Positions 807-11,098 of a stretch of 33,910 nucleotides of DNA are shown piece by piece. Both the position numbers and the translations under genes were made by a program. The stretch's first letter is position 1. Every line of letters begins with the position of its first letter. A model generated the notes under the pieces. It was not told the DNA's origin. It saw nothing but the letters and a program-made list of their open reading frames with translations, and did not search any database. Source of the DNA: Methanofollis sp. Lineage in GTDB: Archaea; Halobacteriota; Methanomicrobia; Methanomicrobiales; Methanofollaceae. The DNA lies in assembly GCF_028702905.1 (NCBI RefSeq), contig NZ_JAQVNX010000013.1, forward strand, positions 2,522 to 36,431, read 5' to 3'.

Positions 807-2306
807 TCAGACCGCCTCTCTCCACTGACAGTACTCGTGCCTGAAGTCGACCATCGAGGCCGAGGCGCAGTCCTTGCAGGCCCGCACCGGGGCTGCGATC
901 TGCTCCGGGTGAAGGGCGATGATGTTCGTCATCATCGTCGCCGTCACCGGTTCGCTCGTCAGCAGACAGGGGTAGTCGGCGAGGCGCATCAGGGCCGAGT
1001 AGCGTACGGTGATCGCCGAGGCCGGATAGGCGTAGCGCTGCGGGTTCATGATCACCTCACTCTCATGGATGGGCGCGAGGTCCACAGGGAAGCCCGCAGC
1101 CTTTGGAGTCAGCAGGTCGCCGGACCCGTTCCTCTTCCTCCGTGCGGCGTCGAGCATCCGCCAGCCGCGCCAGATCATGTCCATGAAGTCGCAGTTGTGG
1201 AGTTCGGCCGCGGCGCCGCGGGTCGGGTACAACTGCACGAAGTTGTGGAAGCGCTTCGTGAGGAGGTCGACGACCATCGGGGCGTTGAAGCCGTCGAGTT
1301 CGAGGATGTACTCGGTCGCCGCCGCCGACGACCCCGTGGCGATGGAGAGGAGCTGGTACTCACTTTTGACTGTGTCCAGGGCCGCCCGCACGCTCCTGTC
1401 CATCACTTCGGTCACCGCCTCGATGATGCCCATCACCACGTCGTCCTTGCACATGTTGAAGGTGGACTGGGCGATGTGGTGCGCGATGTCGCCGACACAG
1501 TAGGCCGGGACGGTGACGATGTTGCCGTAGTGGACCCCGCCGTCGATCGCGGCCTTCACGAAGGGTTCGATGTCCTTTTTGTACCCTTCCATGTACTTCG
1601 CCGGGTCGAAGGAGGTCATCCCTGCCTTTTCCATCAACTCGACCTGCGCCCGGACAGGGTGGTCGTAGATCGCCTGGAGTTGTTTGACCTCCTGCTTCGT
1701 GGCGTCGGCAAGGGTCTCCCCTGCCTCCACGGCCTTGGCGAAGACCTCGCCGATGCCGTAACTGGTGTTCATGCCCCAGGACTTTGCCGCCAGGATCGCC
1801 TGCCTGTGCTCTGTCGGGATCTTGACGGTCTGGAGGATCTGGTTGACGACATTGGACGTGCTGCCCGGTATCAGGGCGAAGTCGACGACACAGGTCGGGC
1901 CGTAGAACCCGGCATACCGCCTCGCCGCCTCGCGGCCGATCAGGGCTTCGGACTTCCCGATTGCCTTGATAAAGGCGTCCATGCTCTTCCTGAATTTCGG
2001 GTCCTCGGCATAGAGGACTTCGAGGACGGCAGGCGTCTGGTAGTGCTCGACAAAGGGGTCGTCCTCTGGCCTGACATAGTCGGTGAGCGCGGAGAGGTTC
2101 CTGTAATGGGCCTTCACAGACTCCACATGGAGGTCGATCACCGCCTTGCTCTGTCCTTCGCTGGCCTTCATCTTCGCCGCGGCGTCGACGTAGGCCTTGC
2201 CGTCCTTCACCTTGAATGCCGTGCCGCGCTTCTTTTTGATCGTCTCCACGTCGGCGCGCTGCGCCGCCATGGCCTCGTCAAGGATTTTCGTATAGATCTC
2301 TTTCAT
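807..2306 (-). CDS. DUF2193-like methanogen protein of unknown function
   Basis: A 499-residue soluble protein without signal peptide or membrane segments. Length and sequence character fit the DUF2193 family of methanogen proteins, which has no assigned function; this is from memory, not a search. Notable are scattered cysteines in conserved-looking motifs (GPTCVVDF, PAYCVGDIAHH, NMCKDD, LHNCDFMDM) and a C-terminal ACKDC followed twelve residues later by another Cys close to the C-terminus, so metal or Fe-S binding is plausible. The start at 2306 is preferred over the longer frame to 2357 because a GGAGGAG Shine-Dalgarno lies seven bases upstream. It is the first gene of an operon with a zinc-binding DUF2180 protein and an aquaporin, and has a long upstream leader. 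Confidence 0.7.
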   Translation of the reverse strand: MKEIYTKILDEAMAAQRADVETIKKKRGTAFKVKDGKAYVDAAAKMKASEGQSKAVIDLHVESVKAHYRNLSALTDYVRPEDDPFVEHYQTPAVLEVLYAEDPKFRKSMDAFIKAIGKSEALIGREAARRYAGFYGPTCVVDFALIPGSTSNVVNQILQTVKIPTEHRQAILAAKSWGMNTSYGIGEVFAKAVEAGETLADATKQEVKQLQAIYDHPVRAQVELMEKAGMTSFDPAKYMEGYKKDIEPFVKAAIDGGVHYGNIVTVPAYCVGDIAHHIAQSTFNMCKDDVVMGIIEAVTEVMDRSVRAALDTVKSEYQLLSIATGSSAAATEYILELDGFNAPMVVDLLTKRFHNFVQLYPTRGAAAELHNCDFMDMIWRGWRMLDAARRKRNGSGDLLTPKAAGFPVDLAPIHESEVIMNPQRYAYPASAITVRYSALMRLADYPCLLTSEPVTATMMTNIIALHPEQIAAPVRACKDCASASMVDFRHEYCQWREAV

Positions 2307-2535
2307 GCTTTTCTCCTCCTGCAAAATGGTCGCATCTTGCTTCCGCTCTGGAAGCATTGTTCCCTGGCATGTGCCGGTATCAAACAGATTGAATCAACGC
2401 GAGCGAACGACTGAGAGAAACTGAATGCCGGATGGTGTCTCTGTGCCGGCCCCCTGCCGCTCGCTTCGGGGTCTGGCCTGTGGTGACGCCTGCCTTTTCG
2501 TGCAGCCGCCCTGTACTTTCACCTCCTTACAAAGC

Positions 2536-3016: not shown

Positions 3017-4942
3017 TCACGCCCGTTTTTCGCCGATCCGGCCTTCCGCGGCCTTCAGGACCATGCCGATCATCCCGGGATATGAGACCCCGGCGATCTT
3101 CGCCATCTTGGCAAGGTGGCCGTCCCAGCACCATCCTGGATTCGGGTTCACTTCAAGGAGTTTCGGTTCGCCGTCGGTCGAGAGCCGCCAGTCGAGGCGG
3201 GTATAGTCGCGGCTGCCGAGCCTTCTCGTCATCTGCACGCTCCACTCGATGATCTGTTTCTCGGTCTCCTCAGGGAGGTCGGCCTTGATGGAGGTGATCT
3301 TCCAGTACGGCGAGTCCTGAACCCACTTTGCCTCGTAGCCGCAGATCCTCGGAAGTTCGGGCGGGAGGGCAGAGTAGTCCTCTTCGATGATGGGCAGGAC
3401 CGTGTACGATTCAGGCGGGTTGCCGATGATCCCGACAGAGAGGTCGGGGCCGGTGAGGTACTCCTCGACCAGGATCGGCTTCTCGAACCCGAAACGCGAC
3501 CTGATCGACGAGATCGCACGCGTCAGATCTTCGAACGAATACGCGACACTCTTCTCGGTGATGCCGAAACTCGAGTCCCCTGAGTTGGGCTTCACGATCG
3601 CGGGCAGCCTGAAGGGGATCTCGTAGGCGATCTCTTCGCCGCGGACGAGCACCGCCTCGGGCACCGGGATGTGCATCTCCCGGGCCACGCCCCTGACAAG
3701 CGACTTGTCGTAGCAGAACGCGAGGCACTGGGGGGCCGACCCGGTGTACGGGATCCCCATGACCTCAAGGAGGGCGGGGACATGCAGTTCCTTCCAGGGG
3801 TCGTTGAGGAAGCCCTCGTCGCAGAGGTTGAAGACGTAGTCGGTCTTGCTGCGCAGCCTTTCCAGGTCGGCGACAAGGGTCTGGTGGTTGTCAAGGAAGG
3901 CGAAGCGGTATCCTTTCAACTGCTTCAGCGCCTCTTTGAGCCGGTTGATGGTGTCATAGTCGTCCTCGTCGAAGACACAGTCCGGCTTGACGTCGTCCCT
4001 GAGGCGCGGATCGCCGAAGATGACCGTCACCTGCCGCACGTCAGAGGCCGCACCCTTCGCAGGCTCTGCCCATGCCTTGGCGATCGTGCCGGTGACGACG
4101 ATCCGCCTCTCCATCATGCCGAGGTCCTGGTTCCGTGCCGACTCGGTCGCGATCTCGCCGTGCCTGCCGATGTCGGAGAACCCGGCCGAAGAGATGAGTT
4201 CTTCGATTTTTTCTCCGGTGTACAGCCGCTCTGCATAGAACTGGTCGGCGATCACCCCCTTCTCCACATGGGTGATCACCTCCCGGGAAATGAGCCGCGC
4301 CCCGTCTGCCGAGAGGGACCGCTCCCTGCATACGAAGTGTTTTTTATCGATCCATTCCCAGGAACGCTTCTGGAAGTTGTCCCTGAGATATCCGCCGTCA
4401 GAGATGTCGATGAGCACCCTGCCATCCGGTTTGAGCACCCGTGCAACCTCGGCGAGCACCAGGCGGTCGTCCTCCCCGCTCTCGAAGTAGCCGAAACTGT
4501 TCCCGAGAATCATGACGGCGTCGAAGGTGTCGGTGCGGTACGGGAGACGCCGTGCGTCCCCTTCCTTGAACCTGACATCCAGCCCCTCCTTCTTTGCGGA
4601 GGCCCGCGCCTTCTGGACCAGGTAATGAGAACGGTCGAGCCCTTCGGCGGTGAAGCCGCGCCTGGCCAGTTCGAGGGTGTGGCGCCCCTGTCCGCAGCAG
4701 ACATCGAGGATACGATCGTCCTTCCTGAGGCCGGCCGCTTCTGAAAAGAGGTCTATCTCCTTTACCGTCAGGGTGTCGTCGCCGACCACGTCGCCGTCTG
4801 TCTTGAGGTAGAGGTGGTTGAAGATCCCCCGCCACCACTCCGGCGGGACATGGGCTTCGAGGTTGTTCACCGGACCAAGCGACCGCTCCTGCACTTTTTT
4901 CTTCTTCCCGTCCGAAATGGAGGTTGGCTTTCGTTTGTTCAT
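3017..4942 (-). CDS. Fusion protein: SAM-dependent methyltransferase + D-Ala-D-Ala-ligase-like ATP-grasp
   Basis: A 641-residue soluble two-domain enzyme. Residues about 35-270 form a class I SAM methyltransferase with motif I ILDVCCGQGRHT (78-89), a GDARRLPY segment and LKPDGRVLIDIS. Residues about 300-641 form an ATP-grasp ligase of the D-Ala-D-Ala ligase type: VPALLEVMGIPYTGS, KPNSGDSSFGI, LVEEYLTGPDLSVGIIG and the metal/ATP motif EVNPNPG near the C-terminus. ATP-grasp enzymes of this type join a carboxylate to an amine through an acyl-phosphate. Methanomicrobiales have no peptidoglycan, so true D-Ala-D-Ala synthesis is unlikely; a methylated peptide-like or amino-acid conjugate is a better guess. 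It stands alone, followed by a terminator-like hairpin and facing away from the DUF2193 operon. A lysine-rich N-terminal 20 residues precedes the folded part. Domain calls are firm; the substrate is unknown. Confidence 0.85.
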   Translation of the reverse strand: MNKRKPTSISDGKKKKVQERSLGPVNNLEAHVPPEWWRGIFNHLYLKTDGDVVGDDTLTVKEIDLFSEAAGLRKDDRILDVCCGQGRHTLELARRGFTAEGLDRSHYLVQKARASAKKEGLDVRFKEGDARRLPYRTDTFDAVMILGNSFGYFESGEDDRLVLAEVARVLKPDGRVLIDISDGGYLRDNFQKRSWEWIDKKHFVCRERSLSADGARLISREVITHVEKGVIADQFYAERLYTGEKIEELISSAGFSDIGRHGEIATESARNQDLGMMERRIVVTGTIAKAWAEPAKGAASDVRQVTVIFGDPRLRDDVKPDCVFDEDDYDTINRLKEALKQLKGYRFAFLDNHQTLVADLERLRSKTDYVFNLCDEGFLNDPWKELHVPALLEVMGIPYTGSAPQCLAFCYDKSLVRGVAREMHIPVPEAVLVRGEEIAYEIPFRLPAIVKPNSGDSSFGITEKSVAYSFEDLTRAISSIRSRFGFEKPILVEEYLTGPDLSVGIIGNPPESYTVLPIIEEDYSALPPELPRICGYEAKWVQDSPYWKITSIKADLPEETEKQIIEWSVQMTRRLGSRDYTRLDWRLSTDGEPKLLEVNPNPGWCWDGHLAKMAKIAGVSYPGMIGMVLKAAEGRIGEKRA

Positions 4943-8360: not shown

Positions 8361-8858
8361 ATGAAACGCGTTGCTCTTATGCTTGTTCTGGCAGTACTGG
8401 CAGTTTTTGCCCTCTCTGCCGGATGCACCGGATCGTCGCCCGCGGCGACCCCGACCCCGACCGCCACACCTGCGACGACCGTGCCCGTGACGACTCAGAC
8501 GGTCTCCCTCGAACCGTCTGGAACCGATGTCATCCCTGCCAACTACTTTGTCAAAGCCGAGGCGGCGAAGGACCCGATCTACCGCGGCATCACCGTTACG
8601 TTCAGCGGCGGCCTCGGCCAGGAGAATGTGAAGGAGTTCACCGCCACCGTCACCCGCTCTGACGGCAAGACGGAGACGAAGTCCCTCACCAAGCCCTCGG
8701 GCCGCTCCCTCTCCAGGGGGCAGAGCCTTGAGTTTAACGGAACGGCCGGCGACGACCGCGTCCAGGTCTGGGTCGTGATGGACCGGCCGCTGGGCACGGA
8801 CGCACAGACGAAGTTCAAGATCTGGGACAATGTCCTCGGTGCCAAGGGGACGAAGTAA
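8361..8858 (+). CDS. Secreted lipoprotein, function unknown
   Basis: A 165-residue exported protein. Residues 1-21 are a lipoprotein signal peptide with lipobox LSAGC and lipid-accepting C22, followed by a Thr/Pro-rich linker (about 24-45: PTPTATPATT) that would hold the folded part off the membrane. Residues about 55-160 form a beta-rich domain (YRGITVTFSGG, KEFTATVTRSDGK, DRVQVWVVMDR), probably immunoglobulin-like. Such lipoproteins are frequent in Methanomicrobiales, and I know no defined function. It is divergent from the oxoacid oxidoreductase genes (92 bp apart) and convergent with arfC, only 6 bp between stops. T-rich runs at 8859-8876 may end both transcripts. Confidence 0.8.
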   Translation: MKRVALMLVLAVLAVFALSAGCTGSSPAATPTPTATPATTVPVTTQTVSLEPSGTDVIPANYFVKAEAAKDPIYRGITVTFSGGLGQENVKEFTATVTRSDGKTETKSLTKPSGRSLSRGQSLEFNGTAGDDRVQVWVVMDRPLGTDAQTKFKIWDNVLGAKGTK

Positions 8859-8864
8859 TCCTTT

Positions 8865-9548
8865 TCACTCCTTTTTTCTGACCGTCCACCTGAGCAGGAC
8901 GCCGTCGTCGATCTTTTCGACACCCACAAGTTCAAGGCGCGGAAACGCGTCCTCCGCGACAAAGCCCTCCCCGTCCGCAGGTGTCGGTGCGTCCCTGCCG
9001 CCGATGACGACCGATCCGACATAGGTGATGAGTTCGTCGACAAGGCCTGCCCTGAAGAGCCCCCAGATGAGTGTCCCCCCTCCCTCGACCATCAACCGAC
9101 CGATGCCGAGGGCGCCGAGTTCGTCCATGAGTCTCCCGAGGTCGACCCACTCCTCCCCTGCGACGATCACCTCTGCCTTCTCCCTGAGGGTGCTGACTCT
9201 GTCTGCGGGTGCGGACGCAGAGACCGCAATGATCCTCAGCCCCTCTCCCTTCATGAGGATGTCGGCGTCAGGCGGCGTCCGTGCCGCCGAGTCGACGATG
9301 ATCCGCACCGGGTGTTCATCACGCCCTCCCTCTCTGCGCGCGGCCCTCAGGTCTGCAGACTTGACTGTGAGGGATGGGTTGTCAGAGAGGATGGTGCCGA
9401 TTCCCACCATGATGCCGTCGGCGACGGCCTTGAGTCGGTCGACACGCTGAAAATCGTCTGTTCCTGAAATCTTCACCTGGCGCCGCTCTCGTGTCGAGAT
9501 CTTCCCGTCGGCGCTCATTGCAAGGTTGACAAAGACATACGGACGCAT
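8865..9548 (-). CDS. arfC: 2,5-diamino-6-(ribosylamino)pyrimidinone 5'-phosphate reductase
   Basis: NADPH-dependent reductase of archaeal riboflavin/F420-precursor synthesis: it reduces the ribosyl side chain of the diaminopyrimidine to ribityl. The 227 residues match the RibD C-terminal/dihydrofolate-reductase-like family: YVFVNLAMSADGKIS at the N-terminus, DGIMVGIGTILSDNPSLTV (cofactor and substrate loop), PVRIIVDS, and LMVEGGGTLIWGLFRAGLVDEL. Methanogens need this pathway for F420 and FAD. The deaminase half found in bacterial RibD is absent, as in archaea. A TATA box at 9572-9579 sits about 25 bp from the ATG, so the mRNA is probably leaderless. No other riboflavin gene is in the window. 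Confidence 0.93.
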   Translation of the reverse strand: MRPYVFVNLAMSADGKISTRERRQVKISGTDDFQRVDRLKAVADGIMVGIGTILSDNPSLTVKSADLRAARREGGRDEHPVRIIVDSAARTPPDADILMKGEGLRIIAVSASAPADRVSTLREKAEVIVAGEEWVDLGRLMDELGALGIGRLMVEGGGTLIWGLFRAGLVDELITYVGSVVIGGRDAPTPADGEGFVAEDAFPRLELVGVEKIDDGVLLRWTVRKKE

Positions 9549-9571
9549 GTTCTGAGGTTTTGATCCGCTCT

Positions 9572-9579
9572 GATTTATT
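9572..9579 (-). promoter_or_regulatory. TATA box of arfC (leaderless)
   Basis: Minus strand CAATAAATCA, centred about 27 bp before the arfC ATG at 9548, leaving no room for a 5' leader. Confidence 0.5.
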
Positions 9580-9630
9580 GTGCGCGTTTTCTTATTTCAA
9601 CGCCGTTATTTTTTGAAATAAAAAGAAGGC

Positions 9631-9640
9631 AATATATAAT
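9631..9640 (+). promoter_or_regulatory. TATA box of the histidine kinase operon
   Basis: AATATATAAT preceded by A-rich bases (AAATAAAAAGAAGG, a plausible BRE region). Its centre lies 23-32 bp before the candidate starts at 9659, 9665 and 9668, so the transcript is leaderless or nearly so. Confidence 0.6.
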
Positions 9641-9658
9641 CGTTGGATTCACATTTCT

Positions 9659-11098
9659 GTGCGCATGATGTCGAGGGATTGGAATGCCCCCATGATCTCC
9701 CCCTGGGACCTGAGGCGGTGGCTGTACCTGATCGGGATCAACGGTCCGCTCTTCGGCCTTCTCTTCCTTATCGTCCTCTATTCCCTCATGCACACTGCGG
9801 GGTTCGCCATATCCTATCTCTACTATATCCCCCTCGTGGTCGTGGCAACCTGGTACTCGAACAGGTCGATATGGACGGCCGCGGCACTCTCCTCCGGGTA
9901 CACGGCAGTGACACTCTTCCTCGCCTTCGGCGGCTATGCCGTTGACCCGGTCATTCTCTTTCTCTTCACCATGCTCTATCTCTGGGGGATGACGGCTGTC
10001 ACCCTCTTTGGCGCCGGGTCAGGCAGAATTCCAGGCTCGATCCTGAAAAAAGGCCCTTCCTTTTTTTTCGACGCAAAAAGCCTCCAGATCACCCGGGCCG
10101 ATCCCGCCCTCGCCGGGATCCTGGGTCTGTCGGTTCACGAGATTTCAGGCATGCCCCTTGCCTCGGTCTGGGAAGATCACACTGATCTGAAGACCTTCTG
10201 CGGGGTGCTGGAGAGGGGGGCCGCGGTTCTCCACTACGAGACCTTTTTCCATGATCCTTCGGGACGACCGGTGCCTGTGCTTCTCTCCTGCGTTCCCGGC
10301 ATGCCCGAGCACCGGTGTTCGGTCCTTGATGTCGCCTCCCTGAAGGCGTTCAGGGATGCACGTTCGGCCGGGGAGGCCGCGGTCAGGATGTGTGCCGCAG
10401 AGGCCGAAAGGCGGCAGGACTTTATCACCACGGCGGCCCACGAACTCAGGACTCCTCTCCAACCGGTCTTCGGCTACCTCTATCTCCTCCTTGAGGATAG
10501 GCAGAAGTACGGTCTCGATGACGAGGTCTGCCGTATTCTCGGGATCTGTATGGAGAATATCAGCCGCGAGAAGAATGCCGTGAACAGGATGCTGGAACTG
10601 AGCCTTCTTGAGGGGGGGAAAGTATGGTGCGACCGTGCCCCTGTCGACCTTGCGGGTATTGTCGGCGAGGTGCTCGCCTGTCATGACTCTGGCGACGATG
10701 TGTCGATAACCCTCAGGATCCCGGAAAATACGGTGATCGATGTGGACCATGACCAGTTCTTCATCGTTCTTGAGAGCCTCATCACCAATGCCGTCCGGTA
10801 CAGCGAACCCCCGAAAGTCGTCGAGATCTCGTACGCCGAGGACGGGGCCGCCCGGTACGTCATGGTGAAGGACAATGGCATCGGGATCGAGCCCGGGAAG
10901 ATCAGGACAATCTTTGAACCATTTTATCTTGCCGACGGGGAGAGGACGACTCGCACCTTCAACAGGATGGGGCTCGGTCTTTCCATCGCCGAGAGATATG
11001 CCCGCCTGAATGGGGGAGAGATCCGGGTCGAGAGCGTGCCTGGTGAGGGAAGCACATTTACGATCGTCCTGTGGCAGGGATGCGATCATGGGGCGTAG
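9659..11098 (+). CDS. Membrane sensor histidine kinase
   Basis: A 479-residue sensor kinase. Residues about 20-120 hold four hydrophobic helices (LYLIGINGPLFGLLFLIVLY; SYLYYIPLVVVATWY; AALSSGYTAVTLFLAF; VILFLFTMLYLWGMTAV), a compact membrane sensor like those called MASE- or MHYT-free 4TM inputs. Residues about 135-235 look like a PAS domain (DPALAGILGLSVHEISGMP). The HisKA box is AAHELRTPLQP with phospho-acceptor H261. The ATPase domain follows: N box ESLITNAVRYS, G1 VKDNGIGI, G2 MGLGLSIAERYARLNGG. GTG 9659, ATG 9665 and ATG 9668 are all possible starts and the promoter does not separate them. The stop overlaps the response regulator start by 11 bp, so the pair is coupled. The signal sensed is unknown. 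Confidence 0.93.
   Translation: MRMMSRDWNAPMISPWDLRRWLYLIGINGPLFGLLFLIVLYSLMHTAGFAISYLYYIPLVVVATWYSNRSIWTAAALSSGYTAVTLFLAFGGYAVDPVILFLFTMLYLWGMTAVTLFGAGSGRIPGSILKKGPSFFFDAKSLQITRADPALAGILGLSVHEISGMPLASVWEDHTDLKTFCGVLERGAAVLHYETFFHDPSGRPVPVLLSCVPGMPEHRCSVLDVASLKAFRDARSAGEAAVRMCAAEAERRQDFITTAAHELRTPLQPVFGYLYLLLEDRQKYGLDDEVCRILGICMENISREKNAVNRMLELSLLEGGKVWCDRAPVDLAGIVGEVLACHDSGDDVSITLRIPENTVIDVDHDQFFIVLESLITNAVRYSEPPKVVEISYAEDGAARYVMVKDNGIGIEPGKIRTIFEPFYLADGERTTRTFNRMGLGLSIAERYARLNGGEIRVESVPGEGSTFTIVLWQGCDHGA

Follow-up and report, generated by a model that had tools for sequence, protein, structure and literature searches.

Ddl-like ATP-grasps, related to the D-Ala-D-Ala ligases (Ddl), are routinely annotated as cell-wall enzymes. 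The pathways leading to mycosporines include, besides such an ATP-grasp, a methyltransferase. The ATP-grasp MysD of mycosporine-like amino acid synthesis (PMC10384724) and PylC of pyrrolysine synthesis (PMC2933860) are both Ddl-like and both have a small amino-acid substrate outside the wall. They are encoded by separate genes within a defined pathway, and are compared with the ligase described here at the level of the superfamily. In the window, i.e., the whole stretch of 33,910 nucleotides analyzed from a Methanofollis species (the source assembly is a 2.4-Mb MAG, 96% complete), a methyltransferase and a Ddl-like ligase are joined in one gene (positions 3017..4942, minus strand), whose open reading frame starts with ATG and encodes 641 residues, the same fusion being found in its relatives. 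No description of this fusion, nor any account of it with a known substrate, was found in the open-access papers searched, so that the possibility of an already described enzyme did not materialize. Likewise, it is not mentioned where an archaeal fusion survey (PMC11237513) names ATP-grasp or methyltransferase domains. Each half is of a known kind; the fusion family itself was not found described.

The preliminary description of a single open frame joining an intact methyltransferase to an intact ATP-grasp is borne out by the frame itself, Pfam, AlphaFold2, and Foldseek, each half having a domain above its Pfam gathering score. Following a variable, unconserved tail (residues 1-21; 4880..4942, minus strand) modelled with low confidence (pLDDT below 50 over residues 1-17), the N-terminal half (residues ~22-287; 4082..4879, minus strand) contains the motifs WWxxIFN..YLKTD, LDxCCGQGRH, LGNSFGYF, SWEWID, and RNQDLGMM, with ILDVCCGQGRHT spanning residues 77-88. 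It passes the cut-offs of the Pfam methyltransferase families Methyltransf_25/11/31 (PF13649/08241/13847), Methyltransf_25 being matched at residues 78-174 with an E-value of 7.9e-22 (methyltransferase region ~78-178), and it resembles the class I methyltransferases 1wzn and 3d2l in Foldseek. With both a Rossmann core and the SAM motif, this half is a predicted class I SAM-dependent methyltransferase. It has the methyltransferase core in common with the glycine/sarcosine N-methyltransferases and the UbiE-type class I enzymes, but remains far under their cut-offs (56.8 against 350 for NF051855, and 56.9 against 158).

The C-terminal half (residues ~302-637; 3032..4039, minus strand) displays the motifs FDxDDYxT, NLCDEG, CYDKSLVRG, KPNxGDSSFGI, GYEAKW, RxDWR, and EVNPNPGWCWDGHLAKM, as well as EVNPNPG at residues 597-603, and matches Pfam Dala_Dala_lig_C (PF07478) at residues 444-628 (E-value of 1.6e-23; 83.8 bits for a cut-off of 24). 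Its best Foldseek matches are all Ddl, covered over the whole target (target TM ~0.75-0.83) including the Ddl N-domain, which is missed by Pfam. As modelled, it is thus a complete D-Ala-D-Ala-ligase-fold ATP-grasp. The catalytic motifs, said at the outset to be retained in both halves, are invariant over 67 dereplicated homologues, with the exception of the SAM motif LDxCCGxG, which is nearly so. In the AlphaFold2 model, built on a 70-sequence alignment, which has a mean pLDDT of 89, the N-terminus is disordered and a short linker (295-300) separates the two halves; their relative placement is uncertain, given a pTM of 0.56, so that the model lends no support to channelling.

How far the ligase half departs from a genuine cell-wall enzyme can be seen from an Atribacteria locus (L100), where the fused gene is adjoined by a true Ddl carrying both Ddl Pfam domains, the two proteins agreeing at 26% in the alignment. 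Eight residues (K413, K451, E493, K539, R582, D584, E597, and N599) are kept with respect to this Ddl and to VanA, and we take them, by analogy with E. coli DdlB, to have ATP and acyl-phosphate roles. The likeness to the D-Ala-D-Ala ligases of the COG1181 kind therefore extends to the whole fold of this half and to these residues. In contrast, besides the added methyltransferase, the fused protein has W540 instead of the Tyr that follows the lysine of the Ddl motif YxxKY, and, in the loop that follows PG, G608-H609 instead of the Ser and the residue next to it. W540, G608, and H609 are invariant in all 67 homologues and lie in a WCWDGH motif absent from the Ddl and VanA sequences aligned; judging from this alignment, they replace the residues holding the second D-Ala. 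Since the nucleotide and acyl-phosphate residues are kept and those for the second substrate are lost, acyl-phosphate chemistry by the ligase half is probable, and D-Ala as its second substrate improbable. Besides, none of the curated NCBIfam Ddl, Van, and methyltransferase models reaches its cut-off on the fused protein, the Ddl models TIGR01205 and NF002378 scoring 111.5 for 245.65 and 120.6 for 243, respectively. In DdlB, Glu15 holds the first substrate by its amino group; by analogy, this part may be played by the acidic FDxDDYxT stretch found early in the ligase half. The view that this half acts on something other than murein is thereby strengthened, and the fused family provides a clear case, archaeal as well as bacterial, in which the cell-wall label given to a Ddl-like ATP-grasp is wrong.

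The framing of this gene as the peculiarity of an archaeon without murein, on the other hand, has to be abandoned, the fusion being common across many bacterial phyla, peptidoglycan makers included, and able to adjoin a true Ddl; an archaeal adaptation to missing murein is ruled out by this wide bacterial distribution. Scanning of the genome collection yielded 228 loci encoding a relative, 80 of which were kept. The archaeal carriers include Methanofollis, Methanoculleus, Methanosarcinaceae, ANME-1, Jordarchaeia, and Freyarchaeota, and the bacterial ones among the 80 loci, many of which come from metagenome bins whose individual taxon labels may be wrong, include Planctomycetota, Atribacterota, Chloroflexota, Aminicenantes, Stahlbacteria, Tectomicrobia, Thermodesulfobacteriota, and Spirochaetota. 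Across the host phylum, 59 of the 394 genomes sampled, several of which are closed, encode the full-length fusion. Within Methanofollis, six genomes encode it in full length, two of these assembled in one or two contigs. The fusion, looked for in other methanogens, is thus present in Methanoculleus, Methanosarcinaceae, and closed Methanofollis genomes, and its recurrence in closed genomes rules out an assembly join of two genes. Outside the genus, homologues (one of which lies at G395:C1:5360895-5362778) are 57-67% identical to the window protein. In the tree, neither Bacteria nor Archaea stay together, and three or more label changes fall on starred branches, making gene transfer between the domains likely, although contamination of bins could mimic the same pattern.

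Divergence proceeds in parallel in the two halves (mean identity of 0.69 each; correlation of pairwise identities r = 0.82; Mantel p <= 0.001), which points to an old fusion passed on as one unit. Separated halves occur in a few genomes (G014, G227, G022, and G064), where they read as the outcome of a frameshift, stop, or deletion and not as separate functional genes. Within Methanofollis, the fused gene is flanked by ferritin and DUF2193 genes, and three genomes (G007, G003, and G005) have syntenic flanks from which it is missing without remnant; the genus varies in whether a single fixed position carries the gene.

As for its surroundings, no partner gene was found to recur across lineages in the 68 dereplicated loci compared, 33 of which show no close same-strand neighbour. 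In the window, the neighbours encode DUF2193, ferritin, and 2-oxoacid oxidoreductase subunits, and in ANME-1, glycosyltransferase/GH130-like genes (assigned by eye) lie downstream. The degree of identity retained over two domains of life, together with the lack of a common operon partner, suggests independence from any partner-encoded pathway, and the fused protein probably acts alone. More can be learnt from the nearest non-fused ATP-grasps, which are 31-39% identical and adjoin, or are fused to, a KamA-family aminomutase, a GNAT acetyltransferase, a second ATP-grasp, or a peptidase S58. An operon on a Thioflavicoccus plasmid (L154, 4536-10017) combines an SbnA-type diaminopropionate gene, an ATP-grasp, and KamA, and one on a Bradyrhizobium plasmid (L159, 3123-7888) lysine 2,3-aminomutase, gamma-glutamyltransferase, 7TM, and ATP-grasp genes. 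In Methanosarcinaceae (L141, 4953-7070; L142, 698-2815), a related ATP-grasp is fused to an S58 (DmpA-type) peptidase domain, detected by Pfam on L141. By-eye assignment of an ANME-1 operon (L176, 742-6466; L177, 2923-7520; L178, 152-5709) gives an ATP-grasp joined to an M20-type peptidase-like domain, with gamma-glutamyltransferase and N-formylglutamate amidohydrolase-like genes, as well as KamA in L176 and L178, possibly forming a beta-amino-acid peptide pathway. The theme shared by these contexts, as read from their predicted genes, is that of unusual or beta-amino acids and peptides of these.

On these grounds, the function that we somewhat favour is that of a stand-alone bifunctional enzyme making a small methylated amino-acid conjugate. 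In such an enzyme, the ATP-grasp half would convert an amino-acid carboxylate into an activated acyl phosphate and join it to an amine other than D-Ala, and the methyltransferase half would methylate, in a SAM-dependent manner, either the amino-acid substrate or the product. The fold and motifs, the loss of the Ddl second-substrate residues, the scores below every curated Ddl and Van cut-off, the lack of a conserved partner, the surroundings of the nearest ATP-grasps, and a cassette found at the gene site in ANME-1 (see below) all speak for such a conjugate. That amino acids serve as substrates is inferred from the genes accompanying the nearest non-fused ATP-grasps, namely those for lysine 2,3-aminomutase, diaminopropionate synthesis, gamma-glutamyltransferase, GNAT, or peptidase; both halves would presumably act on one molecule, and the product would be a metabolite instead of a modified protein. 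The two-step modification of one substrate initially put forward fits with the co-evolution of the halves insofar as two linked steps are concerned. In light of the conservation of the protein across many anaerobic phyla of two domains, the product is probably a metabolite that is common in anoxic environments yet has gone unseen, in methane producers and methane oxidisers as well as in others.

The site of the fused gene is taken, in three ANME-1 MAGs, by a lysine-2,3-aminomutase/ATP-grasp/GNAT cassette, with gene remnants at one or both ends and flanks 80-90% identical (L144, 4516-9178; L139, 6978-11939; L138, 1126-2316, cut off within the cassette). Compared with the reference locus L077 of genome G295, where the fused gene is intact, two MAGs of the same genus (G313 with L144, and G322 with L138) keep ~90% DNA identity in the upstream flank until the gene start, and have the cassette in place of the gene core; after the cassette of L144, the last codons of the fused gene reappear (L077 9582 onwards). 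A MAG of another genus (G144, L139) has the same cassette with a remnant of the N-terminal part of the gene on one side and of its C-terminal part on the other, after which come the same glycosyltransferase genes. Although these are drafts, misassembly is unlikely since three separate MAGs are concerned. The cassette ATP-grasp is one of the nearest non-fused relatives. Cassettes of this KamA/AblA - ATP-grasp - GNAT kind (L133-L144, L154, L159), which contain the nearest non-fused ATP-grasps and take up the same site in these MAGs, differ from the fused gene in consisting of several genes and in having an acetyltransferase and an aminomutase in place of the methyltransferase. No aminomutase or GNAT gene lies alongside the fused gene of the window, and strict mutual exclusion between the fused gene and KamA/ATP-grasp operons was ruled out, as G295 has, besides the fused gene, a different KamA/ATP-grasp-peptidase operon. 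The occupied site fits either displacement by a functional substitute or plain disruption.

AblA and AblB make the osmolyte N-epsilon-acetyl-beta-lysine, and the KamA of the L139 cassette passes the AblA lysine 2,3-aminomutase cut-off (531.5 against 525.4). In this context, the conjugate could be a compatible solute, namely an osmolyte consisting of an N-methylated (betaine-like) amino acid or dipeptide, its single gene being interchangeable in function with the beta-lysine/ATP-grasp/GNAT cassette. The appeal of such a role is that charged amines are capped by acetylation and methylation alike, acetyl-beta-lysine and the betaines being examples, and the in-place swap in ANME-1 is in line with it, as is the presence of the fused gene in all three Methanofollis genomes devoid of AblB. 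AblB also occurs more often where the fused gene is present (36 of 59 genomes) than where it is absent (62 of 335). Nevertheless, this phylum-wide association is confounded by phylogeny, the carriers include hot-spring and groundwater lineages, the insertion may inactivate the gene without taking over its function, and two of the three draft MAGs are only ~60% complete, so that the osmolyte appears rather unlikely. We also regard as unlikely the broader proposal of a one-gene pathway, widely exchanged among anaerobes, whose product would be a so far undescribed methylated amino-acid conjugate that probably acts as a protective solute; the pathway would be interchangeable with an equally undescribed beta-lysine/ATP-grasp/acetyltransferase pathway, by which it was displaced in place in some ANME-1.

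A point against a free conjugate comes from Planctomycetota, where trmD closely precedes the fused gene in at least five dereplicated loci, a linkage compatible as well with a protein or RNA target connected to translation. The ATP-grasps include protein modifiers such as RimK, and the fused protein might correspondingly ligate an amino acid to, and methylate, a protein terminus or side chain, for instance of the ribosome. This is decidedly unlikely, however, since the trmD link is limited to one phylum, the fold is that of Ddl and not of RimK according to Foldseek, and the relatives accompany free-amino-acid enzymes. The fused gene follows trmD in L066, L084, L102, L111, L124, and L130; in L084, rplS is found downstream, and in L130 the open frame continues from trmD directly into the fused gene. 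Finally, a D-Ala-D-Ala (or D-Ala-D-X) ligase serving an unrecognized wall or peptide, with the methyltransferase as an accessory, accords with the Ddl fold and the retained ATP-site residues but is highly improbable for a protein that falls under every curated Ddl and Van cut-off, has its second-substrate residues invariantly replaced, coexists with a true Ddl, and is widespread in murein-free archaea.

Carriage of the gene as viral or plasmid cargo was rejected: a viral scan with peptide patterns found nothing, a megablast DNA search of phage records gave no match, and no plasmid record matched 80% of the query. A role as a defence gene was rejected, the PADLOC matches covering the methyltransferase core only; so was MADS anti-phage defence, 150 of the 492 mad2 positions being matched and none of the adjacent genes scanned being MADS-like. 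One Methanomicrobiales genome contains two full-length copies of the fused gene with identical scores (G052:C1:2246924-2248774 and 2265588-2267438), as well as a broken third one (8771-10620). The DUF2193 protein encoded beside the fused gene in the window (807-2357; E-value of 1e-268) belongs to a family conserved in archaea; of the nine Methanofollis genomes searched, three have its frame interrupted and one lacks it.
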